Source of the DNA: an uncultured Verrucomicrobia subdivision 3 bacterium
Lineage (GTDB): Bacteria > Verrucomicrobiota > Verrucomicrobiia > Limisphaerales > UBA11358
Assembly (NCBI GenBank): GCA_903878805.1
Contig: CAIRJF010000017.1
Location: 1 to 64,000, forward strand
Reading direction: 5' to 3'
DNA: 64,000 nucleotides
A program made the position numbers and the translations under genes. The notes beneath the pieces are model-generated. The model made no database searches and was not told where the DNA came from. It saw nothing but the letters and a program-made list of their open reading frames with translations. This document shows, in pieces, positions 2,889 through 64,000 of the stretch (its first letter is position 1; each line of letters begins with the position of its first letter).

Positions 2889-5888
2889 TCAATTTTTTAG
2901 CGAAATTATTTGGTCGGGTTTCGCCGAAAATTTTTGTTTGTGGCCGTTGGCTTCCAGCAACACTTTTTGTTTCTGCGCCGTGATGCCGACGATTTTATAA
3001 ACGTGTCCGTCTAAATCCGTGACCACGCGGCAGCCGGTCGAGCAGGAAAAAATTTTACGGCCGTCCAATTCCGCGCTGACGAGGCCGTTGGTCGAAGTCA
3101 TTTTCCAAACGTGTTCGCCCCAGCGTTGCGAATAGGAAAAATCTTTTTCATCGCACGCCGACCACCAGACTTGATTTTGGACGACATCGAGATGAATGCC
3201 GTGCATCCGCGAAAGGTATTCCAACACGGAAAGAATCATCGGGCCGTAGCCATCCATGTGCGCGCTGGCCAGCTCGCCGGTGGACGGATCAATCTGTTCC
3301 GTGAAACGGTTGTGGCCGCGCTCGACCGCGGCAATCAGTTTTTCGCCCAGCTCGGTGACGAGCGAATAATGCCCGTAATTTTCCAGCGCGCGGATGGCGC
3401 GTTGATACGTCAAACCTTCCGGCTGGCCGCTCCAATCGTTGCCGCTGGAATTGCGAAACAGCGGATCGTTGGCTGCGATGGAGGGCAGGGGAACGGGCGT
3501 CCAAAATTCGTTCGTGTTCAGCAAATGATATTTGATGAATTCGTCCGCCATCTTCTGCGTGAAAATGCCGTGATACATCGCGCGCAAATTGTTGTGGACG
3601 ACTTCAGGAAGCACGTTGCCATTTTTGTCGCGGTCAAAACACGCGTGCCGTTTTTCGTCCCACAATTTTTCAATGAGCGTTTGGCGCACGGCCTCGGCTT
3701 GTTGCTGCCAGAAATTTTCCTGGCCGTTGCCCAGCTCTCGCGAAATTTTCGCCAGCGTCGCGCGCATGTCGTAGCTGTAAGCCATCATTTCCATGGATTG
3801 AAACGGCACAAGCATTTGGTCGCGCGGCATCGGCGGACGTTTGCGTTCCGCTTCCAAAGCCCAGTATTGCTTGAAATCTTTTGGGTTCATCGGATCGGGC
3901 GTGCCGGGACTGCCCGGCGGCACGTCAAACGGCCACGGCGCGGGGGCGCCGCGCGCCATGTAGCGCTCCGCAAAATCTTCGCCGGTGTCATACATGCACC
4001 AGCTTTCAATCACGCCGTCGTGGTTGGAATCGCGCGTGCGCCAGAGATACGCGTCGTGCGCGGCGAGACCGTTGTAAAGTCGCTGCAAATAATCCTTGTC
4101 CTTGCCGGCCCAAAAATAAGTCCGCCACGCCGGCTCGGGAAAACACAGGCCTTGCAGCCAGCCGTAGTGCGCGAGAACTTTCAACTCGGGAAACCATGCC
4201 GTCCAAAAATTTGTGCCGCTGGGAATTTCATTCGTGCGGCGCAAAAACGAAGTCACCATGCCGGGAAAACGTCCGTCGCGCCGTTGCGTCAGCAGGAAAA
4301 TATTTTGGTTGTTGAACGCCAGCTGCACGTCGCGCGCGGCATACATCTCGCCACCCATCGGTTGCGTTTCGATCCAGCAATTCCCGTAGCCGCCGCCCTC
4401 GACGAGAATTTTCATCGTTGGCGTGAACGGCGTGACATTGCGCCGCTCCATCATCTCCGCGCGGTTGTAAAGTTGTTGGAGATTGGTGTCGGTCGTTGAA
4501 AATTTTACGCCGGTCAGCGGCAACGAACTTTTTTCTGGAATGCTGGCCGCGGTAGTTTCCGGCAAACTGATGGCCGGAATGTCCATCGCCGAGCCGTCGA
4601 GTTGCAATTTCACGACCGTCGCCGTGAACTTTTCGCGCGGCGGCAAATGCAGAATAATTTTTCCGTTCGTCGTTTCAAAGTTGACCGCTTTGCCGCCAAG
4701 AATGTTGGCGGAAATAATTTTTTTCGGTAAAGCCGGCAATTCGATTTCGGTTTTCTCTTTGTTCAAAACAAAAACGTAAATGGAATTTCCCTTGCGCGTG
4801 CTGGCGATTTGTTTCATCGGTTTCCACGGGCCGCCGCGCGTGCCGTAAATGCTTTCGCCGTTCACGTCCATCCACGCGCCGACTTTTTTCAACACTTCAA
4901 CCTGACGCGGTTCGATGCGGCCATCCGGCATCGGGCCGACATCGAGCAATAAATTTCCATCGCCGCCGACCGTTTGTGCGAGGATGCTGATGACTTCGGC
5001 GGCGGATTTGATTTTGTCGTTTGGTTTCCACGACCATTGCGTGCCGAGCGTCATGCACGATTCCCACGGCTGTGATTCGTCGTAAGCGCCGACTTTTTGC
5101 TCTGGCGTATAAAAATCTTCGTTCGCGCGCAGCTTGAGTTTTTCCTGATGCGCCCATTGCTCGCCGGTGTCCATTTGCAGTCGGTTATCAATGATGATTT
5201 GCGGCTGCAATCCGCGCACGAGCGGATACGTCGTTTCGGGATGCCACATCGTCAGACGCCCGTCGGAATCAAACCACAGCACATCAATCTTGCCGTAGTT
5301 CGTCAGCAGCTCGCGCAACTCGTCTTGAATGTGCGCCACAAAATGATCATTGTTCGTCGAGCGGCACTCGGGATCGCGCCAGTCCATCGGCGAAAAATAC
5401 CAGCCCATGTGCAAGCCGGCTTGGCGCACCGCTGCTGCCAGTTCCGCGCAAAGGTCGCGGTGAAACGGCGATTGCATAATGTTGTAATCATCCACCTTGG
5501 AATCCCACAGCAAAAATCCGTCGCAATGTTTCGCCGTGAGCACGACGTATTTCATGCCGGCGGTTTTGGCGACCTCGGCCCACTCCGCTGCGTTAAAATT
5601 CGTCGGATTAAATTTTTTGTAGAGGTTGTCGTAAATCTCGACTGGTGTTGCTCCTTTGTTCGGGCAATTGGTATTTGAATTCGCGCGCGACCAACTGATT
5701 TCTTTGCCGGTTAACGCCACCGGGCCATAGTGAATGAACATTCCAAATCGCGCCGCGCGCCACCACGCCATGCGCTCCGCCTGATTTTCGTTGGGCATTT
5801 GCGAAAGCTCATTTGCCAAGAGTTTTGAGACGCCGGCTACCAAAAAAAAGAGAACGACTAAAATTAATTTGGGAGATTTCACCTGCAA
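2889..5888 (-). CDS. alpha-L-fucosidase (GH29) fused to a GH63-like (alpha/alpha)6 domain
   Basis: A secreted protein of about 999 residues. The signal peptide spans residues 1-25; the start may be the TTG at 5888 or the in-frame GTG at 5882. Residues 35-420 are GH29, with RFGMFIHYGP, AGMKYVVLTAKHCDGF and IDVLWFDSDG, whose Asp207 is the expected nucleophile. Residues from about 455 to 880 resemble the (alpha/alpha)6 fold of GH63 and mannosylglycerate hydrolases: PMGGEMYAARDVQLAFNNQ, then RRDGRFPGM, DGVIESWCMYDTGED and NDWSGQPEGLTYQRA. A beta-rich tail closes it. GH29 releases alpha-fucose from glycans; the second domain suggests release of another alpha-linked sugar. It heads an operon with a truncated GH29 and is divergent from a sensor kinase likely to control it. 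The GH63 assignment is by motif only. Confidence 0.8.
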   Translation of the reverse strand: MQVKSPKLILVVLFFLVAGVSKLLANELSQMPNENQAERMAWWRAARFGMFIHYGPVALTGKEISWSRANSNTNCPNKGATPVEIYDNLYKKFNPTNFNAAEWAEVAKTAGMKYVVLTAKHCDGFLLWDSKVDDYNIMQSPFHRDLCAELAAAVRQAGLHMGWYFSPMDWRDPECRSTNNDHFVAHIQDELRELLTNYGKIDVLWFDSDGRLTMWHPETTYPLVRGLQPQIIIDNRLQMDTGEQWAHQEKLKLRANEDFYTPEQKVGAYDESQPWESCMTLGTQWSWKPNDKIKSAAEVISILAQTVGGDGNLLLDVGPMPDGRIEPRQVEVLKKVGAWMDVNGESIYGTRGGPWKPMKQIASTRKGNSIYVFVLNKEKTEIELPALPKKIISANILGGKAVNFETTNGKIILHLPPREKFTATVVKLQLDGSAMDIPAISLPETTAASIPEKSSLPLTGVKFSTTDTNLQQLYNRAEMMERRNVTPFTPTMKILVEGGGYGNCWIETQPMGGEMYAARDVQLAFNNQNIFLLTQRRDGRFPGMVTSFLRRTNEIPSGTNFWTAWFPELKVLAHYGWLQGLCFPEPAWRTYFWAGKDKDYLQRLYNGLAAHDAYLWRTRDSNHDGVIESWCMYDTGEDFAERYMARGAPAPWPFDVPPGSPGTPDPMNPKDFKQYWALEAERKRPPMPRDQMLVPFQSMEMMAYSYDMRATLAKISRELGNGQENFWQQQAEAVRQTLIEKLWDEKRHACFDRDKNGNVLPEVVHNNLRAMYHGIFTQKMADEFIKYHLLNTNEFWTPVPLPSIAANDPLFRNSSGNDWSGQPEGLTYQRAIRALENYGHYSLVTELGEKLIAAVERGHNRFTEQIDPSTGELASAHMDGYGPMILSVLEYLSRMHGIHLDVVQNQVWWSACDEKDFSYSQRWGEHVWKMTSTNGLVSAELDGRKIFSCSTGCRVVTDLDGHVYKIVGITAQKQKVLLEANGHKQKFSAKPDQIISLKN

Positions 5889-9019: not shown

Positions 9020-9658
9020 ATGAAAAAAAATCCCATTGCCGTGGCCGTGGTCGAGGACGTGAAAGGCACGCGCGAAAATCTCGTCGAGCTGCTGAAGCGC
9101 GCGGCCGGGCTGAACTGCGCGGGCGCTTTTGCGAGCGGCGAGGCGGCGGTGCGCGATTTGCCTACGCTCGCGCCGGATGTGGTTTTGATGGACGTGAATT
9201 TGCCGGGCATGAGCGGCGTGCAATGCACGGCGCAGTTGAAGGCGCGGTTGCCGAAGACACAGTTTCTGATGCTGACGGCGTATGAAAACAGCGAGCTGAT
9301 TTTTGAATCGTTGCGCGCTGGCGCGAGCGGCTACCTGATGAAAAATACGGAACCGAACGAAATTCTCGCGGCGATCGAGCAGGTTCACGCGGGCGGTTCG
9401 CCGATGTCCATGCAGATTGCGCGGAAAGTGGTGAGTCATTTTCAGGAGATTAAAAAGCCGTCGTTGGAGTTCGAGCAGTTGACGCCGCGCGAGCTGGAAA
9501 TTTTATCGCTGCTGGCCAAGGGATTTCTTTACAAGGAAATTGCGGACCAATTGAAAATCAGTTTGCACACGGTGCGCGGCCATGTGCATTTGGTTTACGA
9601 AAAACTTCATGTGCAGTCGCGGTCGGAGGCGATCATCAAATTTCTCGGGCAGAAATAA
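9020..9658 (+). CDS. NarL/FixJ-family response regulator
   Basis: A 212-residue regulator. The receiver domain has the acidic pair VVED near residue 12 and the phosphoacceptor Asp58 in VVLMDVNLPG. The LuxR-type helix-turn-helix begins at LTPRELEILSLLAKG and includes EIADQLKISLHTVRGHV. I start it at the ATG at 9020 and not at the longer frame from 8999, because MKKNPIAVAVVED fits the receiver domain. It follows the HisKA_3 sensor directly, so the pair very likely forms one phosphorelay. Targets are probably the flanking carbohydrate genes; the palindromes at 5916 and 9679 are candidate sites. Confidence 0.9.
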   Translation: MKKNPIAVAVVEDVKGTRENLVELLKRAAGLNCAGAFASGEAAVRDLPTLAPDVVLMDVNLPGMSGVQCTAQLKARLPKTQFLMLTAYENSELIFESLRAGASGYLMKNTEPNEILAAIEQVHAGGSPMSMQIARKVVSHFQEIKKPSLEFEQLTPRELEILSLLAKGFLYKEIADQLKISLHTVRGHVHLVYEKLHVQSRSEAIIKFLGQK

Positions 9659-55022: not shown

Positions 55023-55151
55023 GAAATTATTTTAGCCACGGATGGACACGGTCTGTATATCTAATTCAGATTTCAATAAACTAGCGAAAACCATTGATTT
55101 AACAATGCAAATTCGCCCTAACTCGTCACTATTTTAGCTAACTTTTCGCTG

Positions 55152-55175
55152 CTTTCACTGACACTTTCACTGACA
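55152..55175. repeat. tandem 12-bp repeat near the island's left edge
   Basis: CTTTCACTGACA occurs twice head to tail. It lies 10 bp before the end of the first island gene, at the junction with the chromosomal glycine cleavage genes, so it may mark the edge of the island. Confidence 0.4.
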
Positions 55176-55184
55176 GTTTGCGGT

Positions 55185-55586
55185 TCAATCTTCATCCGGC
55201 AACATGATGGTAATGGCTGGTTGCGGGTCGTCAATGTCGAGTGCGCCACACATGGCGACAAGTTTCACCAGCTTGGCGGCGCGGTTGTCGTTGCGAACGT
55301 AGAGCGCGAACGGCAAACGGCTTTGCCCGCTGACCGCCTTGCGAATGGCAAAGCGAAGCATCCAGACAACATCCCAAAGCCTTCCGGCTTCATCCTGCCC
55401 GCTGACGTTCGGCGGGACGGTCACATAAGCGTCAAAGGCGGTGCGCGTGATAAACACCGGAAAACGGATTCCGGCTTCCTGCGCGGTCTTGCTCACTTCA
55501 ACCTGAAAGCCGTCTGCGATGGCTTGCTTGCGGGTGTAGGCGTAAATTACTTCGCCAAAGGGTGAATTGTCGGTGTGTGTATTCAT
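55185..55586 (-). CDS. DUF6573-like small protein of mobile-element type
   Basis: 133 residues from the ATG at 55586 (MNTHTDNSPFGEVIYAYTRK). The opening FGEVIYAYTRKQAIADGFQV and the following ITRTAFDAYVTVPP, then RLWDVVWMLRFAIRKA and LYVRNDNRAAKLVKLVAMCG match the DUF6573 family, which is mostly found on plasmids and integrative elements and has no known function. Longer frames upstream are shadow. It follows the next gene by 14 bp. Confidence 0.75.
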   Translation of the reverse strand: MNTHTDNSPFGEVIYAYTRKQAIADGFQVEVSKTAQEAGIRFPVFITRTAFDAYVTVPPNVSGQDEAGRLWDVVWMLRFAIRKAVSGQSRLPFALYVRNDNRAAKLVKLVAMCGALDIDDPQPAITIMLPDED

Positions 55587-55600
55587 GGCAATAATTCCTT

Positions 55601-55975
55601 TCAAGCGGGCAAAACATCGGCGGCAAAATAGCTGCGGTATTTGCTGCGCGGGTCTTTGGGGTGTGAAGCGTAGGGCGCACACGCCCCGCAAGGGTGCTGC
55701 CACACGCAACGGCGTTGGTTCCAATGGAAGCCCAAACGGGAAAGAGTATTCGCGGCGGCGCGATGGCTGGCCTTTGGAAATTCCAACCAAACCCACTTAC
55801 CGACAACCTCCGCGAGTTCGTATTGCTCCGGCAACTGCTTCCGCAGAAATTCCAAGACGGTGTTGGTGGGCAATTCGCGGTTGTAATTGTATTTGCTCAC
55901 CCGCCCGCCTCGGTTTGATGATAGCTGATCGGCGTTTGCTGGCGTCGCTGCTTCAATCTGTAATTTGTTTTTCAT
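55601..55975 (-). CDS. hypothetical mobile-element protein
   Basis: 124 residues from the ATG at 55975. The central VLEFLRKQLPEQYELAEVVG-WVWLEFPKA and RLGFHWNQRRCVWQHPCGAC look like a compact fold with a small Cys/His-rich end, but no family is named with confidence. It runs with the DUF6573-like gene in one operon. This pair is typical of element backbones and suggests that the island to the right came in by transfer. Confidence 0.6.
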   Translation of the reverse strand: MKNKLQIEAATPANADQLSSNRGGRVSKYNYNRELPTNTVLEFLRKQLPEQYELAEVVGKWVWLEFPKASHRAAANTLSRLGFHWNQRRCVWQHPCGACAPYASHPKDPRSKYRSYFAADVLPA

Positions 55976-56062
55976 AAGCTTTTTTTTGATGTTCGCCGCT
56001 CGTGTCTCGCCGTATGTCGCTTGCTTCACCAATCGCGGAGACATTTTTTGAACACACTCCGG

Positions 56063-56817
56063 TTTATTTCCGGCGTGCATGAGGCATGACAGCGAAAGTT
56101 GGGGCGTTATCAGGTAGCCCCGGTCGCTGGCGTGGCTCATGCGCTTCGTCGCCGGAAATAAAACGCCCCGCGAGAGCGGGAATTAAGAAGCCTGAAAAAG
56201 ATGGCGTAGCAGCAAGCGCACTACGGAAAGACCTCGGCGGCGTTCCCCTAAAACAAAACGCGCCATGACCCAAAACACTTAACAAAAATTTACTAGCCCC
56301 GCAGGGTCGCCAAAGGCTCAAGTTCTATTTCCGCCTTGACGGGCGCGACGGGCGGGCTTCATGGCTCTGCATGAAGCATGACGGACAAGCATCCTCCGGC
56401 CTGTCTCTGATAAATCCCGAAGTGGAATGTAGCGGAATGAAGGGGTGAGCCAGCGGGCAAGGGTCGTTGGCTGCACTGGAATGAAGCGAAATTGAAACGA
56501 AGGGAATTATCAGAGTCAGGCAACTTCCGGTGGCGGCAGTCGGCGGTTTTGAGGCGCAGGCACAGTCCCGCTTGCGAACGTAGCCGGAGCGGCAAAACTG
56601 TCGTCTGACGCCGCCATCAAAATGGGTCGCGGGGTCGCGCTATTCTGACTTTTGGCTGGCGGTGTGAAGCAAGGGAGCCGTGGCTTGCAGGGTGAAGGGC
56701 AAGCCGGAAGGCGGACGGCTGAACACGACGGCCAAATGTCAGACTGAAATGGGCAAGGACAAGTGGCACAAGTTGCGCGGTGGCTTGCCACGCTGAAAGC
56801 GAGCGGCTGCTTGTGCC
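56063..56817 (+). ncRNA. large structured RNA candidate, about 760 nt, no credible gene
   Basis: No plausible protein frame covers this interval. It folds as a series of long hairpins with perfect arms: 56063-56075/56150-56162 (13 bp) with inner stems 56077-56083/56136-56142, 56090-56095/56124-56129 and 56101-56105/56117-56121; 56167-56171/56176-56180 (GAGA loop); 56201-56206/56261-56266; 56356-56363/56370-56377; 56399-56403+56405-56413+56415-56418 with 56502-56505+56507-56515+56517-56521; 56531-56537+56541-56551 with 56593-56603+56610-56616; 56644-56656/56731-56743 with inner 56676-56681/56715-56720 and 56682-56688/56699-56705; and 56765-56772/56810-56817. Loops are purine-rich. Three G.U pairs occur in the + strand reading. 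Confidence 0.6.
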
Positions 56818-56834
56818 TCTTGGACGCCGGGAAC

Positions 56835-58775
56835 TCAAAGATTTGCAATTTCGTTTTCCAAATGGATGGATTCTTCAGGAAACAGGCCAAGCGATATTAT
56901 CTGACGTTTGGCACTGGCAATGTCACCTGTGAAAAGAACAACGATTAAATCCTTCATGGCGCGAGTGCAGCAGACGTAGAAAAGACGTCTTGTCCTTTCG
57001 ACTGCGGTTTCCTTACCCTCTCGTCTGTTCGTCTCATCGCGGTCTGACAGCGCCTTAATGCCTAGATATTTGTCGTAGGAAAATTGCACATGCGTTCCTT
57101 CATCATCATCAAGGACTACGAGAACACGCTCGAATTCTGCACCTTTAATGCCTTGCTGCGTGGAGAACGGGGAATCATCGTTGACGTAATTATAGTAGCC
57201 CCAGAATTGCGATGCTGGGCAGGCAAGGAACGCGTCCATCGCTGCGACTTCTTTCGTTAATTCCTCCCCATCATCATCGTTCTCGGCTGCCTGAGGATTT
57301 TCATCACCCCCAGCTTCATTCTGCGGCGGCAGATTGAGATACGAAAGTATCCTAGGGTCTAACAATATGACTTTGGACTCATGAAGCAGACGTAGGGCAT
57401 CAGCATTGGTTGCTCCCGATTCGGGCTCCATCATTCGTTGCAAAGATTCAGTGAAACGCCGTAGCTCTGCGAGCCGCTCCGCTATGTTAACGCCTTTTAA
57501 CTTCTCGCGATCCATGAGCGGCGATGTTCTGAGAAGTTGCATAACCTCGAATTCACGCCCCTTTTTGGCTGCCTCCACAAGTGGCAGAACGAAACTATTG
57601 AATGGGCGAACCGGCCAAGCAGTGCCGTCTAAAAAGCCGTTCTTGAATTTATCTGGAGCTTTGTCATTCAGGGCCGCATACAAATCACCGAAGCCAAGAC
57701 GCTTGGCGGCCATTCTATGGACGATTACAAGGAGCTTAACTTCATCAACTCCCTCAGTCATCCATGCGGGATCATCAATTTTTTCCGCAGCCCACAAGCG
57801 AATCTCCTTAATCCGTTGGTCGCGTCGTTCATCAGCCGGAAGTATGAAGATATGCGCGTTGCCGGGCATACTCACCTGAGCACCCTCAGGTCCTGTCATT
57901 CGCCCTCGCGTTTGGACTACGGGGTCGCCCTCTCGCCTGATTGCGTTGGCGACAGCGAGCACTGAAGTTGGACACCGGAAGTTCTCAGGCTTTGTGATCT
58001 TGGCCCAACCCGCCTCTGTTGGTATCTCGCCGACTCCTGTCGGATAAATGCGCTGCATGGGATCGCCAAAGAACCCCAGACAGAACCGATCTCCCAATTC
58101 CTGATCTACGGCCTTGAGAGCCGACACTACGTTTTCGGTTGTATCTTGACTCTCATCAACGAAGAGGAATGGAAACTGTTGCACCAAAATGCTTCTCATC
58201 AATGGGCGCTCAACAATGATTTGCGGCACCATCTTGATTATGTCGTCGTGTCCCAAGATGCCATTAACGTAGTCACTTCCTGTTCCATAGGTGAATGAGC
58301 GGACACGGCCAATCCGCGTCTTCTGTTGCTCGTATCGGAGAATATCGCGCTGGTTCTTGTCACGCGTGCGTTGCTGCACGCGCGGGCCGAAATTGGCGGC
58401 AGTCTCCCTCAATTCAGCAAGCTTCTCGTCAATACGGTTTGTCACCCAAGCTTGGATGTCGGATTGGAAAGCACGAACAAGTGACCAGAGAAAGCTATGA
58501 ATTGTTGAAACATGAACAAGAGGGTTTTTCCCCACGTCTGCCCATATCTCTCCGGCAGCAATTTCGGTGTAAGTGATGCAGGCAACCTTTTGGCGGCGGA
58601 GTCTCAGTCTTTCACCATGTTTGGTAAGAATCTCCGTCAGCCCCTTTATTAAAGATGTGGTCTTCCCTGATCCAGCCCCTGCGACCATCAAAAAACTTTG
58701 CGGCGGCGTTGAGTTCAAGCAGCCGTAAAGTTTACGATCCGCTTCGGTATCTTTTTGGTAAGCGCGACTACTCAT
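56835..58775 (-). CDS. UvrD/PcrA-like helicase, GajB-like
   Basis: A 646-residue superfamily 1A helicase. Motif I is VAGAGSGKTTSLIKG, motif II LFVDESQDT, motif III region FFGDPMQRIYPTG, then KGAEFERVLVVLDDDEG (motif V) and RRLFYVCCTRAMKDLIVVLF (motif VI). A charged insert (QNEAGGDENPQAAENDDDGE) lies in domain 2B. Its ATG overlaps the stop of the OLD nuclease by 4 bp. In Gabija, GajB is a UvrD-like protein encoded just after GajA; here it is about 150 residues longer than typical GajB. It ends 18 bp past the structured region. Confidence 0.85.
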   Translation of the reverse strand: MSSRAYQKDTEADRKLYGCLNSTPPQSFLMVAGAGSGKTTSLIKGLTEILTKHGERLRLRRQKVACITYTEIAAGEIWADVGKNPLVHVSTIHSFLWSLVRAFQSDIQAWVTNRIDEKLAELRETAANFGPRVQQRTRDKNQRDILRYEQQKTRIGRVRSFTYGTGSDYVNGILGHDDIIKMVPQIIVERPLMRSILVQQFPFLFVDESQDTTENVVSALKAVDQELGDRFCLGFFGDPMQRIYPTGVGEIPTEAGWAKITKPENFRCPTSVLAVANAIRREGDPVVQTRGRMTGPEGAQVSMPGNAHIFILPADERRDQRIKEIRLWAAEKIDDPAWMTEGVDEVKLLVIVHRMAAKRLGFGDLYAALNDKAPDKFKNGFLDGTAWPVRPFNSFVLPLVEAAKKGREFEVMQLLRTSPLMDREKLKGVNIAERLAELRRFTESLQRMMEPESGATNADALRLLHESKVILLDPRILSYLNLPPQNEAGGDENPQAAENDDDGEELTKEVAAMDAFLACPASQFWGYYNYVNDDSPFSTQQGIKGAEFERVLVVLDDDEGTHVQFSYDKYLGIKALSDRDETNRREGKETAVERTRRLFYVCCTRAMKDLIVVLFTGDIASAKRQIISLGLFPEESIHLENEIANL

Positions 58776-61060
58776 CCGGCAACCTCATCAGTCCCCGCAG
58801 GAACAATCGCGTCAGCCGGGGCCGCAGGCTCTACTACCACAGGTAACGGGGCAGGCAGTTCAAGACTGACTTCGCTGTCCAGCCACCTTAAACCCTCTTT
58901 GATATAGCGTGGCACTTGCCAGTTCGCGGGCACCTCCGTCAGCAAACCCAAAGCGAATTTGGTTTTGTTGAACGACTGTCCGGTCACACGTTTATGAATA
59001 CCAGAAGCGAGATTGTTAGGAGTTGCGGGATTCACCCGAAGCTTCAAACCAATATGGCGCTGAGGTTGTGCTTGGCACCATTCTGCATTTTCAAGAGCGA
59101 AGGCTTCTTCGAGCGTCCGTCCACACAGGCTGACTGTTGTGCCATTCCAAGTCACGTCGGTCGGGACTTGGTATGTAACGCGGACTTTGAAACCGTTGCC
59201 ACCTTCTGCCTCCTGCAATTTATCCGCTTTGGTCGCAACGAGCAGCTCTGCGACCGTTTGTTTCTTTGGCAGCCACTGGATTAAGGTCTGGTTCGACGTG
59301 AGAGCGCCTGGCTCAGAAGGCAGGCACGTTTTACCGGCTTTTCTCACCGGAGGCTGATCTTGTTCGGCATTTGGAACTTCAAACTCCGTATCCTCAGATT
59401 CATCCTCATCGGCGGCATTGGTCACGAGTGCGACGCTATCAAGGTCGGTGATGACTAAAGCAACTAGACCGAGGAACTCGATCAACATCTTGAAGCGATG
59501 CCCAAATGCACCCCCGACCTCCAGAATGCAAAGACATGCGGATCGCAACGAAACCGCTTCCTTCTCAATCATTACAGGAAGCAATAGCCGCTCAACATTA
59601 CCTTCGACGAGGATGGCCGCATCGGCGAAAAATAAGTCGCAATGCGTCAGCTTTAGGTATCGCTGAAGGAAATCACGATCTTCCGCGTTTTTGTCGTAAA
59701 ATGCGGACAGATTCAATACTTCCGTCGTCTGCTCAACATCGGTGTTCTGTCGGCGAAAATACCGGATTGGCTGAAAGCCGCGCTCATAAAGAATATGAGG
59801 CGAATGGGTTGTTACGACCGTCTGGCTGTGGAAAGCGCCGCCGTCTTCGCCGGTTTCTTTCACCAGGTCTAGCACATTCCGAATAAATACCTGCTGGAGT
59901 TGGGCGTGCATGTGTGCCTCCGGCTCCTCAATGAAAATCAAATGCAGCGGAGCACGGTTTTCTTTATCGGCGATCCATCCAGCATGAACGTCCAATATTT
60001 CTACCACCATATAAATGAGATTTTTGAAGCCAAGACCGTTGTAGGCATCTGGAAGTCTTAGAGCGTCGTCCTCATCCCCCAAAACGTAATGCACGCGGGC
60101 GTCTTGACTGCTCATGATCGTCGCAGGATTCAAGGCAGACTTAATCTCTAGTTTGGGATTATTGAGACCGGGATACCCAAGCTTGGAAAGACGGCCAAGT
60201 GTGTCCTTGAAAACATCGTCCAAGTGTTCGTTGAGGCCAACCTCCGAGTCAAACAGTGCCCTCAAAGCACTATGATCCTCCTGTCGCTGATCCAAATTCC
60301 GCTTGTAAAACTTGCTCAGTCGTTTTGAAAGGTCTTCGGATCGTCCTGCACCCGGTCCGCTGCCTGATGACGGATCGGCCAGATGCCTTTGAGCATTGAG
60401 ATTATCAACTTTGATGAGGGATTTCAAAAGTGCTGCGCCGCCGGGGTCTTTGCCCAATGGCAACGGCTCATAGCCTTGGTTGGGTTTATGAGTATCGTCG
60501 AATTGCGCCCGGTCGAGAACGAAGTATTTGAACTCAAATTCACTCAAAAGCTCGTCTTTTAAGTAATCGGTCAGGCTCTTTGGCCACGGAACATATTTTG
60601 AATTTTCGCGCTTTTCCAAAGCGGCGGCTTTAGCCTGAGCTTCTTGGCGAGTTGTGCGGAATTTCTGTAAAAGCTCTGCTTGGTTACGCGCCGCAAACTC
60701 AATGCGGATGCCGACTTGCGTGCCCTGCCAGTGGGTGCTTGGCAACAGTGGTAACACCGGAACCAGATCGGTGGCCGCCACTTCAAACCAGAGATCGAGA
60801 CTAATGGAAGGCAGTGCTGGCTGCTCTGCACCTTCCTCCGGCGGGTTCCCTAACTTGTCAAACTCCTTCCAACAGGAAGAGCTAAAATCATAGAGCGAGA
60901 ACTTATCTTTAGAGCCAGAGGTGAACGCATGAATGGCCTGAGTTGCCGAGGTCTTACCGCTGTTATTCGATCCAACAAAAATCGAAATGTCGGAAGCCAG
61001 CTCAATACGCACGTCCCGCATTCGTCGGAAATTTTTGAGCCTATATGAATGAAGGTGCAT
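58772..61060 (-). CDS. OLD-family ATPase/TOPRIM nuclease, GajA-like
   Basis: A 762-residue protein. The ABC-type ATPase half has Walker A GSNNSGKTSA, the signature-like YNGLGFKNLIYM, Walker B LHLIFIEEPEAHMHAQLQ and the H-loop VVTTHSPHIL. The TOPRIM half has ILVEGNVERLLLP (Glu) and LVITDLDS (Asp-x-Asp), so the nuclease centre is intact. The last 200 residues are extra compared with many GajA proteins (about 580 residues). With the coupled helicase it forms a Gabija-like or class 2 OLD pair, which defends against phages by DNA cutting triggered when nucleotides fall. Confidence 0.85.
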   Translation of the reverse strand: MHLHSYRLKNFRRMRDVRIELASDISIFVGSNNSGKTSATQAIHAFTSGSKDKFSLYDFSSSCWKEFDKLGNPPEEGAEQPALPSISLDLWFEVAATDLVPVLPLLPSTHWQGTQVGIRIEFAARNQAELLQKFRTTRQEAQAKAAALEKRENSKYVPWPKSLTDYLKDELLSEFEFKYFVLDRAQFDDTHKPNQGYEPLPLGKDPGGAALLKSLIKVDNLNAQRHLADPSSGSGPGAGRSEDLSKRLSKFYKRNLDQRQEDHSALRALFDSEVGLNEHLDDVFKDTLGRLSKLGYPGLNNPKLEIKSALNPATIMSSQDARVHYVLGDEDDALRLPDAYNGLGFKNLIYMVVEILDVHAGWIADKENRAPLHLIFIEEPEAHMHAQLQQVFIRNVLDLVKETGEDGGAFHSQTVVTTHSPHILYERGFQPIRYFRRQNTDVEQTTEVLNLSAFYDKNAEDRDFLQRYLKLTHCDLFFADAAILVEGNVERLLLPVMIEKEAVSLRSACLCILEVGGAFGHRFKMLIEFLGLVALVITDLDSVALVTNAADEDESEDTEFEVPNAEQDQPPVRKAGKTCLPSEPGALTSNQTLIQWLPKKQTVAELLVATKADKLQEAEGGNGFKVRVTYQVPTDVTWNGTTVSLCGRTLEEAFALENAEWCQAQPQRHIGLKLRVNPATPNNLASGIHKRVTGQSFNKTKFALGLLTEVPANWQVPRYIKEGLRWLDSEVSLELPAPLPVVVEPAAPADAIVPAGTDEVAG

Positions 61061-61070
61061 AGATTTTTCT

Positions 61071-64000
61071 TTAGCTGGCAGCTTTGTTGCGCAGGGTTTC
61101 GTAGAGGCCCGCGTGATTGAGCAGGATGTCTTTCATCCCGTTTTGGACGGTGGCGGAATTTAGCGCCTGCGTGCTCATTAGGGTGTGCGCGTCCAGTGCG
61201 CCCATGATGGCATTTAGCAACTCGCTCTTTAGGTCGGGCGAATTGGCAAACTGCTCCTTGGTGTTGTTCGTCGCCTGTTGTCGCAAGGTTTCCGACTCAA
61301 GCAGCTTTCCCTTAATCACGTTGTTCACATAGACCAGTTTGTCCTGATCGGTAAGCTCGCCCTCAAAAAGGTCGTTCACCCTTTCGATGATTTCATTCAG
61401 AAAGGCTTTCTCCTTGTCGTGCAACTCGCCGCTGCCCGCTTCGGTGATTGGATCGAGCAGGGGTGTTTCACCGGCATACAATGGCATTGGTTGCCGCCCG
61501 ATGTTTTTCAGGTGGTGATGCGTGAGGATCACTTTCGAGAGGTCAATGCCCTCGCGCTCGCGGCCAAACTCAAGCAGCGGCAAAAGACGTTTGAAAAAGA
61601 TGGCGCGTTTCTCAAGCGCGGTGTTGCCGTAGTCGAAAATTTGGGAAAGGAACGTGTAGAGCCGGATGAATGCGCCCAGGTCGGTCTTGAACAGAATGAG
61701 CGCGTTCAACTCGTCTTGGGCGGTTTTGGCGGCGGCTTCGTCGTCCTTATCCTTCGCCGTTTTCAAAGCCTCCTGCGCGGTCCTGTAACGCTTCATCAAG
61801 CGGTCTTCAACGGGCGCAATCGCCGCCAGCAATTCGCTCTGCTTTGCGTTCGGGTTTAATTCCACCGCTACCACACGCTCGACTTCAAAATCATCGTAAT
61901 GTCCGGCGGCGTCCAACTTCGACCTGAGATTATAGACAAGGTTCGGGTCGGTGGTCGCCGAAAGTTCTGCCGTGGTGTGATAGGTCTTGAAAGCGGCAAG
62001 AACTTCCTCGGTGTCGTTCACGAAATCCAGCACATAGGTCGTGTCCTTGCCGGGGTGGGCGCGATTCAGGCGCGAAAGCGTCTGCACGGCCTGAATGCCT
62101 GCGAGCCGCTTGTCCACATACATCCCGCAGAGCAACGGCTGATCGAAGCCCGTCTGGAATTTGTTCGCGACGAGCAAAATCTGATAATCGTCGCCCTTGA
62201 AGGCTTCGCGGATGTCACGGCCTTTCAGATTCGGATTGAGCGCGTGGCTGTTTTCCGTAAAACTGTCCGGGCCGGATTGCTTGTCATTCACTTCACCGGA
62301 AAAGGCAACGAGCGTGCCGATTTTGTAGCCATGCTCCTTGATGTATTTATCAATCGCCAGTTGCCACCGCACGGCCTCGACGCGACTGCCTACCACCACC
62401 ATCGCCTTGGCTTTGCCGTTGAGCAGCGGGGCAACATATTCGCGGAAGTGTTCCACCACGATCTGCACCTTCTGCGAGATGTTGTAAGGGTGCAACCTGA
62501 CCCAGCCCATGATGCCCTTCATGGCCGCGCTACGCTCGACAGTTTTGTCGTCGTAGTCTTTGCCCTCGTGCGCCAACTTGAACGCCAGTTTGTAAGGCGT
62601 GTAATTTTTTAGCACGTCGAGGATGAATTTTTCCTCAATGGCCTGCCGCATGGAATAAACATGAAATGGCGCGGGAAGATTTCCCGGCCCGGCGGGTTTG
62701 GTGGGAACGGGGCGCGTGCCGAAAAGCTCCATCGTCTTGTTCTTCGGCGTGGCGGTGAACGCAACGAAAGTGATTCCGCCGTCGTCGGCCCGCGCTGCCA
62801 TCTGCGCCGCGAGAACGTCATCCATGCTCACTTCGCCGCCGTCGTTCAACTCCTGCAATTCTTCGGGACTCAACACCGCCTTTAGTTTCGCGGCGGCTTC
62901 GCCGGTCTGCGAACTGTGCGCCTCATCGGCGATCACGGCAAAGCGTTTGCCCTGCGTAGCAGCGAGTTTGCGGACAGCTTCCAACGCAAAGGGGAAAGTC
63001 TGAATGGTGCAAACCACAATCTTCTTGTCGCCTGACAGGGCTTCGGCCAACTCACCGCTCTTGCTGCCTTCGCTGCCTTTGATGGTGGCAACCACGCCGC
63101 TCGTCCGTTGAAAATCAAAGAGGGCTTCCTGAAGTTGTGAATCAATCACCGTGCGGTCGGACACGACCAGCACCGTGTCGAAAACCTTTTTGGCCGTGGC
63201 ATCGTGCAACTCCGCGAGAAAGTGCGCCGTCCACGCAATCGAGTTCGTCTTGCCTGATCCTGCCGAGTGCTGGACGAGATACTTTCCACCGGGGCCGTCT
63301 TTAAGCACGGCCACTTGGAGCTTCCGCGTCACGTCAAGCTGATGAAAGCGGGGGAAAATTACCTTCGTGATCTGCTTCTTTTTGTCGCGTTGGGCGATGA
63401 GGTAACGGCCTAAGATTTCCAGCCAGCTTTCACGCGTCCAAACCTGTTCCCATAAATAGGCCGTGCGGTGGCCGGTCGGATTCACCGGGTTGCCCGCCGC
63501 GCCGTCGTTGCCTTGGTTGAAGGGCAGGAACACCGTGGCCGGGCCGTCCAGCTTCGTTACCATCGAGACTTCGCTGTTGCTCACCGCGAAATGCACAAGC
63601 GCCCCATTGGGAAAAGACAGTAACGGTTCGGCGGTCTGGCCTTTTGGCTTGGGGTTGCGGTCAAAACGATACTGGTCAATCGCGTCGCCGATGCTTTGGG
63701 TGAAATCGGTTTTCAATTCCACCGTGGCGACGGGGATGCCGTTTAGGAACAACACGAGGTCAATGCTGTTCTCGTTGTGTTGGGAGTATTTCACCTGGCG
63801 CACCACGCGCAGCCGGTTGGCGGCGTAGCGGGCGAGGATTTCGGGATTGATGGCGAGGGCGGGTTTGAACTCAGCCAGCTTCAACGGCTTTTTCAGGCCA
63901 AGCAATTCGACTCCGTGGCGCAATACATCCAACGTGCCGCGTTGGTCAAGCTGGTCGCGCAGGCGGGCGAGCAAAGTTTCACCCGCTTTGTCTCCGTGAT
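61071..64000 (-). CDS. hsdR: type I restriction enzyme, HsdR subunit (5' end beyond the window)
   Basis: At least 976 residues. The frame stays open to the right edge (GDKAGETLLARLRDQLDQRG), so the start is outside the window. The PD-(D/E)xK nuclease signature lies in NSIDLVLFLNGIPVATVELK. The motor has Walker A HSAGSGKTNSIAW, DEAH in VIADEAHSSQ, FTATPK and the FQTGFDQPLLCGMYVDKRL and QTLSRLNRAHPGK motifs. A long helical tail (AQEALKTAKDKDDEAAAKTA onward) would bind HsdM. hsdM and hsdS should lie to the right. It precedes the OLD gene by only 10 bp, so the three may be one transcript. Confidence 0.95.
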   Translation of the reverse strand, partial: HGDKAGETLLARLRDQLDQRGTLDVLRHGVELLGLKKPLKLAEFKPALAINPEILARYAANRLRVVRQVKYSQHNENSIDLVLFLNGIPVATVELKTDFTQSIGDAIDQYRFDRNPKPKGQTAEPLLSFPNGALVHFAVSNSEVSMVTKLDGPATVFLPFNQGNDGAAGNPVNPTGHRTAYLWEQVWTRESWLEILGRYLIAQRDKKKQITKVIFPRFHQLDVTRKLQVAVLKDGPGGKYLVQHSAGSGKTNSIAWTAHFLAELHDATAKKVFDTVLVVSDRTVIDSQLQEALFDFQRTSGVVATIKGSEGSKSGELAEALSGDKKIVVCTIQTFPFALEAVRKLAATQGKRFAVIADEAHSSQTGEAAAKLKAVLSPEELQELNDGGEVSMDDVLAAQMAARADDGGITFVAFTATPKNKTMELFGTRPVPTKPAGPGNLPAPFHVYSMRQAIEEKFILDVLKNYTPYKLAFKLAHEGKDYDDKTVERSAAMKGIMGWVRLHPYNISQKVQIVVEHFREYVAPLLNGKAKAMVVVGSRVEAVRWQLAIDKYIKEHGYKIGTLVAFSGEVNDKQSGPDSFTENSHALNPNLKGRDIREAFKGDDYQILLVANKFQTGFDQPLLCGMYVDKRLAGIQAVQTLSRLNRAHPGKDTTYVLDFVNDTEEVLAAFKTYHTTAELSATTDPNLVYNLRSKLDAAGHYDDFEVERVVAVELNPNAKQSELLAAIAPVEDRLMKRYRTAQEALKTAKDKDDEAAAKTAQDELNALILFKTDLGAFIRLYTFLSQIFDYGNTALEKRAIFFKRLLPLLEFGREREGIDLSKVILTHHHLKNIGRQPMPLYAGETPLLDPITEAGSGELHDKEKAFLNEIIERVNDLFEGELTDQDKLVYVNNVIKGKLLESETLRQQATNNTKEQFANSPDLKSELLNAIMGALDAHTLMSTQALNSATVQNGMKDILLNHAGLYETLRNKAAS

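Follow-up and report, generated by a model that had tools for sequence, protein, structure and literature searches.

The window analyzed here, 64,000 nucleotides long, comes from contig C17 (assembly size 2.29 Mb) and carries a structured region that is likely to encode a large, modular, non-coding + strand RNA, representing a new family of Verrucomicrobiota phages and of integrative elements with defence cargo. A preliminary description had placed a long structured + strand RNA, borne on a mobile element and distinct from the families already known, at positions 56063-56817. Comparative analysis supports that proposal, the RNA nature of the product being inferred. The sequence within this span is indeed structured, but its start truncates the outer stem; the unit extends from ~55,980, at a T8 run beside the start codon of the neighbouring gene c0, to the limit of homology at 56,826/56,831 (~0.85 kb). 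The minimum-energy fold of 55,977-56,831 contains 18 helices of at least 6 bp. The + strand folds at -346.1 kcal/mol (z of -4.4 against dinucleotide shuffles), and the - strand at -291.8 kcal/mol (z of -3.6 against dinucleotide shuffles). Smaller details of the earlier account also hold, including both copies of the repeated motif GGAATGAAG (at 56434 and 56478), the G.U pairs 56543 G/56601 T, 56545 G/56599 T, and 56453 G/56467 T, and the location of the flanking genes on the - strand. The region had been thought free of protein-coding sequence, and because alignments of homologues carry 1- and 2-nt indels within the block, it contains no conserved protein frame.

The architecture of the unit is modular, and consists of a Y-shaped domain (R1), an optional middle block (B), a hairpin domain (R2), and a closing terminal hairpin, all on the + strand. 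In the window, R1 belongs to subfamily R1a and forms a closed Y-shaped domain of 76 pairs at 55980..56247, with a match to covariance model R1 at 55991-56244. The T8 run (55980-55987) is the 5′ base of R1, where single-sequence folds close. P1 (55994..56242) is a long-range outer stem that pairs a 5′ arm at 55994-56026 with a 3′ arm at 56209-56242, and both arms are replaced in the homologue G014 (TTGTTTCTGTTC / GAACAGAAACAA). P2 (56063..56162) is a long internal hairpin with the internal loop CRUGACAG / CUGGCGYG, a motif that by eye recurs in several hairpins, and P3 (56166..56181) is a small hairpin capped by a GAGA (GNRA-type) loop. Block B (56322..56639, 318 nt), which is missing in some relatives, comprises a hairpin at 56356-56377, a long stem at 56405-56418/56502-56515, and a second hairpin at 56529-56615. 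The R2 hairpin domain (56640..56753), matched by covariance model R2, is built on the base stem UCUGAC...GUCAGA and is followed by the terminal hairpin (56765..56817), the final 42-54 nt of which recur in G008 and G041 at 96-100% identity. A repeat search had suggested that 56,017 and 56,664 pair over long range, but this pairing is not conserved and was dropped. The first-stage treatment of the region as a single integrated insertion was also rejected, since block B is optional and homology is modular.

Patterns of substitution indicate that this structure is under selection. Among eight R1a sequences, 96.4% of cells at the 76 consensus pairs are paired, and changes on both sides of a pair occur at 23 of the 76, whereas shuffles average 5.4 and sliding the partner gives 1-8; one divergent sequence, G014, supplies most of these both-sided changes, many of them in P1. 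Ten R2 sequences show both-sided changes at 9 of 29 pairs (2.4 in shuffles), and block B, which is common to the window and G020, shows six both-sided compensatory pairs and none broken. Larger alignments were compared with a tree-preserving null in the spirit of R-scape, which puts the substitutions back at random along a FastTree tree and then compares APC-corrected G scores. Significance against this null was reached by 17 of 53 pairs in R1c (62 rows) and 14 of 29 pairs in R2 (33 rows), in alignments that were fitted to their own models and thereby somewhat favour the structure. The top column pairs lie in or beside the proposed structure in 13 of 19 cases for R1c and in 7 of 7 for R2. Covariation is significant across diverse homologues of R1a, R1c, and R2, as expected of the structured element originally proposed.

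The same homologues bear on which strand folds. Among pairs that separate predictions for the two strands have in common, G.U combinations outnumber A.C combinations 11:2 in R1a, 11:5 in R1b, and 7:5 in R2, and in larger fitted sets the ratios are 210:85 cells for R1c and 45:11 for R2. Of 33 R1 loci folded on both strands, 32 give a lower energy for + and 29 a lower z, counts that are not independent trials because the loci are mutually related. Wherever matches of covariance model R3 are listed on both strands, the strand antisense to c0 outscores its reverse. Because wobble ratios, energies, and R3 scores all favour +, we conclude that a single + strand, either RNA or single-stranded DNA, folds; the wobble pairs and fold energies agree with the strand assigned at the outset. 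Judged from sequence, the folded molecules of this family are probably RNAs.

Of 195 relatives searched at the DNA level, 26 carry homologues, and further members were recovered by covariance models R1, R2, and R3. Carriers include many Verrucomicrobiota genomes, mainly Limisphaerales, together with IMG/VR phage contigs; the relatives recovered with the c0 protein of the window are nearly all Verrucomicrobia subdivision 3 / Limisphaerales, and the plasmid and phage DNA collections that were searched gave no match to the region. R1 falls into three subfamilies with little sequence identity among them, namely R1a (the window type), R1b, and R1c. Each opens with a T-run adjoining the c0 start codon, and in most single-sequence folds, including that of the window, this run base-pairs with sequence on the distal 3′ side to close a long rod. 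R1c sequences are too divergent for MAFFT, whose alignment gave a poor consensus fold and was replaced by a covariance-model alignment. R1 (block A) is joined straight to R2 (block C), with block B missing, in G070, G021, G138, and copy b of G045. Several contigs terminate within hairpins, and because several assemblies break in these hairpins, copies are probably under-counted.

The constant neighbour of R1 is c0 (55601..55975, - strand), which encodes a 124-aa orphan protein with the motif LGFHWNxxRxxWQHPCG, recognized by protein alignment. Members of the c0 family are ~125 aa long with invariant LGFHWN and WQHPCG motifs; 23 homologues were aligned, and c0 was recovered at over 90 other loci. 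Pfam, NCBIfam, and PDB yield no match to the c0 protein, PHROG gives a single weak one, to a family of unknown function, and structural comparison of a moderate-confidence AlphaFold model (pLDDT 72) brought up no convincing neighbour. Every one of the 33 distinct c0 genes recovered with an A-run start has R1 immediately upstream, in antisense orientation, and matches to covariance model R3 lie upstream of and antisense to c0 at ~60 loci. Oriented on R1, the gene order is DUF6573<, RadC<, c0<, R1>, R2>. In the window, the DUF6573 gene (55185..55586, - strand; Pfam PF20213, E 9.9e-21) is an accessory member of the c0 operon. A + strand promoter or terminator for the structured region was sought, and none was identified.

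The module occurs in two genomic settings. In phage and prophage loci, the TerS and TerL genes lie to one side of the module and the portal gene to the other, and TerL, TerS, portal, head, and integrase proteins were confirmed nearby. R1 or R2 is co-directional with the terminase or portal gene in all 13 phage loci examined, and R2 lies downstream of R1 on the same strand in 8 of the 10 IMG/VR contigs that have R1. In the window, the module is found with defence cargo encoded on the - strand: GajB (56835..58775; PADLOC GajB, E 3e-243), GajA (58772..61060; PADLOC GajA, E 8e-280), and the type I restriction subunit HsdR (61071..64000, running past the window; PADLOC REase_I), after which HsdS and HsdM come beyond the window (L064). 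The adjacent GajA (ATPase-TOPRIM) and GajB (UvrD-like helicase), which had been described as a Gabija-like pair, are identified as genuine Gabija by PADLOC and Pfam. Other elements carry type II, IIG, or type I restriction-modification genes, and that of G021 carries what appears from its sequence to be an RND-type efflux operon. A MobF relaxase gene lies beyond the module in some carriers, and in G045 two structured copies flank an hsdRSM operon, with a TraG-like gene, a MobA/MobL relaxase, and an integrase-like gene as neighbours. The suspected mobile-element setting is confirmed by these homologues in phages and integrative elements. On the operon side, a conserved segment (55031..55177, no strand assigned) comprising CCACGGATGGACACGGTCTGT and then TTTCACTGACAC/TTTCACTGACAG direct repeats marks a junction at which, in ~28 distinct loci compared by blastn/MAFFT, homology halts at the outer edge. 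This segment with its TTTCACTGACAG repeats is a probable element end, and integration into dispersed chromosomal repeats is possible.

We hypothesize that the + strand region is transcribed, in phages probably within the late transcript, and that its product acts as a folded RNA. The c0 protein could be a partner of this RNA, or c0 could be an antisense-regulated gene. The RNA may serve the lytic or mobile phase of the element, as has been supposed for GOLLD and ROOL. A more specific version, which we regard as distinctly unlikely, has the giant RNA and c0 working with the phage terminase and portal in an RNA-based packaging or head-associated system, and defence islands copying the module and travelling in particles as satellites.

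The main rival to an RNA is a single-stranded DNA element, in which the + strand would be transferred in conjugation and folded R1 would provide the leftward c0-RadC-DUF6573 operon with a promoter or a priming site ahead of second-strand synthesis. Elements of the Frpo type are structured and lie upstream of leading-region genes (PMC11541004), and the module resembles Frpo/ssi elements in being structured, a few hundred nt long, and directly upstream of mobile-element accessory genes. R1 measures 180-270 nt and immediately precedes the start codon of an operon templated by the + strand, relaxases of the MobF or MobA/MobL type and a TraG-type coupling protein are encoded by some carriers, and the fold would be partly available to single-stranded DNA too. 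However, the module differs from Frpo/ssi elements in lacking -35/-10 elements: with the sigma70 consensus as the only one scored, a sigma70-like -35/-10 pair toward c0 reaches 9/12 in 0 of 76 sequences, compared with 7% of shuffles. The module is also found between the terminase and portal genes of tailed phages, and R2 and the middle block are too distant from c0 for a promoter role. Because of the phage position, the sharing of the module with defence-cargo islands, and the absence of a promoter signature toward c0, we favour a structured RNA and consider the Frpo-type single-stranded DNA promoter unlikely.

The phage position itself invites another explanation, that the module is a packaging element, either a pRNA-like RNA or a cos/pac-type site for the phage terminase, copied by satellite-like defence islands. 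This would overlap with the structured RNA we favour if its active form were RNA. The phi29 pRNA is a phage RNA tied to the packaging module, and the present module shares that tie but is much larger, with homology compared via Rfam only. A packaging element would suit both the place of the module in phages, between the terminase and portal genes, and its presence in defence-cargo islands with no visible structural genes, whereas the relaxases of some carriers suggest conjugative mobilization and, to our knowledge, the size and modularity of the module exceed those of known packaging sites; this explanation is likewise improbable. If the - strand were instead the RNA, R1 would be an autoregulatory 5′ leader of the c0 mRNA, as its place immediately upstream of the c0 start codon and the conserved A8 tract that precedes it might suggest. 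Such a leader is very unlikely, given that the + fold is better at 32 of 33 loci, that wobble pairs favour +, and that R2 lies 0.3-0.9 kb away and in G144 occurs with no c0 nearby. Hairpins arisen by chance, or inverted repeats that have decayed in a GC-rich intergenic region, would fit the base composition and the breaking of several contigs here, but are refuted by the compensatory changes, the strong covariation, and the wide conservation, and merit practically no credence.

The favoured structured RNA is best explained as a previously undescribed family that is comparable in kind to GOLLD and ROOL and unrelated to them by membership. A search of all 4227 Rfam families against the whole window and the R1 relatives returned nothing relevant at curated or permissive thresholds; the region matches none of GOLLD, ROOL, OLE, HEARO, or group I/II introns, and the GOLLD covariance model gives no match either at its gathering score or with E relaxed to 10. 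Beyond Rfam, the comparison with published work was made by a text search, which turned up no account of an RNA of this sort in Verrucomicrobiota. Covarying structure over hundreds of nt, encoded by phages or elements, places the module among large structured phage and mobile-element RNAs. GOLLD RNAs are large (often >800 nt), elaborate, non-coding, and found in phages and prophages, with unknown function (PMC12286853). The module is similarly large, elaborate, non-coding, and phage-borne, but lacks a tRNA island (two tRNAs in 10 neighbourhoods scanned) and is tightly linked to an antisense protein gene. ROOL RNAs (~660 nt) are highly structured and also reside in phages and prophages (PMC12286853), as does the module, which unlike ROOL consists of a long closed rod (R1), an optional middle block, and an R2 hairpin. 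OLE is a large ornate RNA that forms RNA-protein complexes (references in PMC12286853); the module is likewise large and ornate, but it is located on phages and mobile elements beside c0 and has no match to the OLE model.

Large ornate bacterial RNA classes are few and the functions of the phage-borne ones are unknown, and this module would add another class, from a phylum whose RNAs have been little studied. Its near-constant antisense protein gene and its fixed site in the phage head and packaging cluster make function testable. Because at least three subfamilies share a layout despite little sequence identity, a comparative structure study is possible at once. That the module is common to phages and defence-carrying islands also points to how such islands might move.

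Several further observations were made in individual genomes. The genome of the window holds a second R1, of type R1b, among chromosomal genes (G000:C28, L271 8,934-9,138, - strand), with its own c0 at 9,160-9,516. Near the end of another contig of this genome (G000:C19 378-508, L003), 131 bp of the R2/terminal-hairpin end survive as a remnant with 91% identity, next to a chromosomal gene. The element end adjoins CCACAGATGAACACAG-like sequence in the window and ~28 relatives. Past the type I restriction operon lies a second DUF6573 gene (L064 12,395-13,009; contig 67,395-68,009), and after it come genes for membrane proteins and for a TraG/TraD-like coupling protein. In R1c (e.g., L219 2,756-2,943), the apical segment GGGAGTAGTCTTCAGAGGGCACC is almost invariant, with co-varying variants. 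An apparent Nextera adapter is found inside an R1 hairpin at the end of G010:C238 (L041 ~5,357-5,390). Two near-identical R2 copies are present on separate contigs of G123 (C312 and C84; L133 and L134). Tandem R2-type hairpins, two per locus, occur at L120 13,839-14,500 and L048 8,169-8,484, the former in a prophage of G144 with no c0 nearby.
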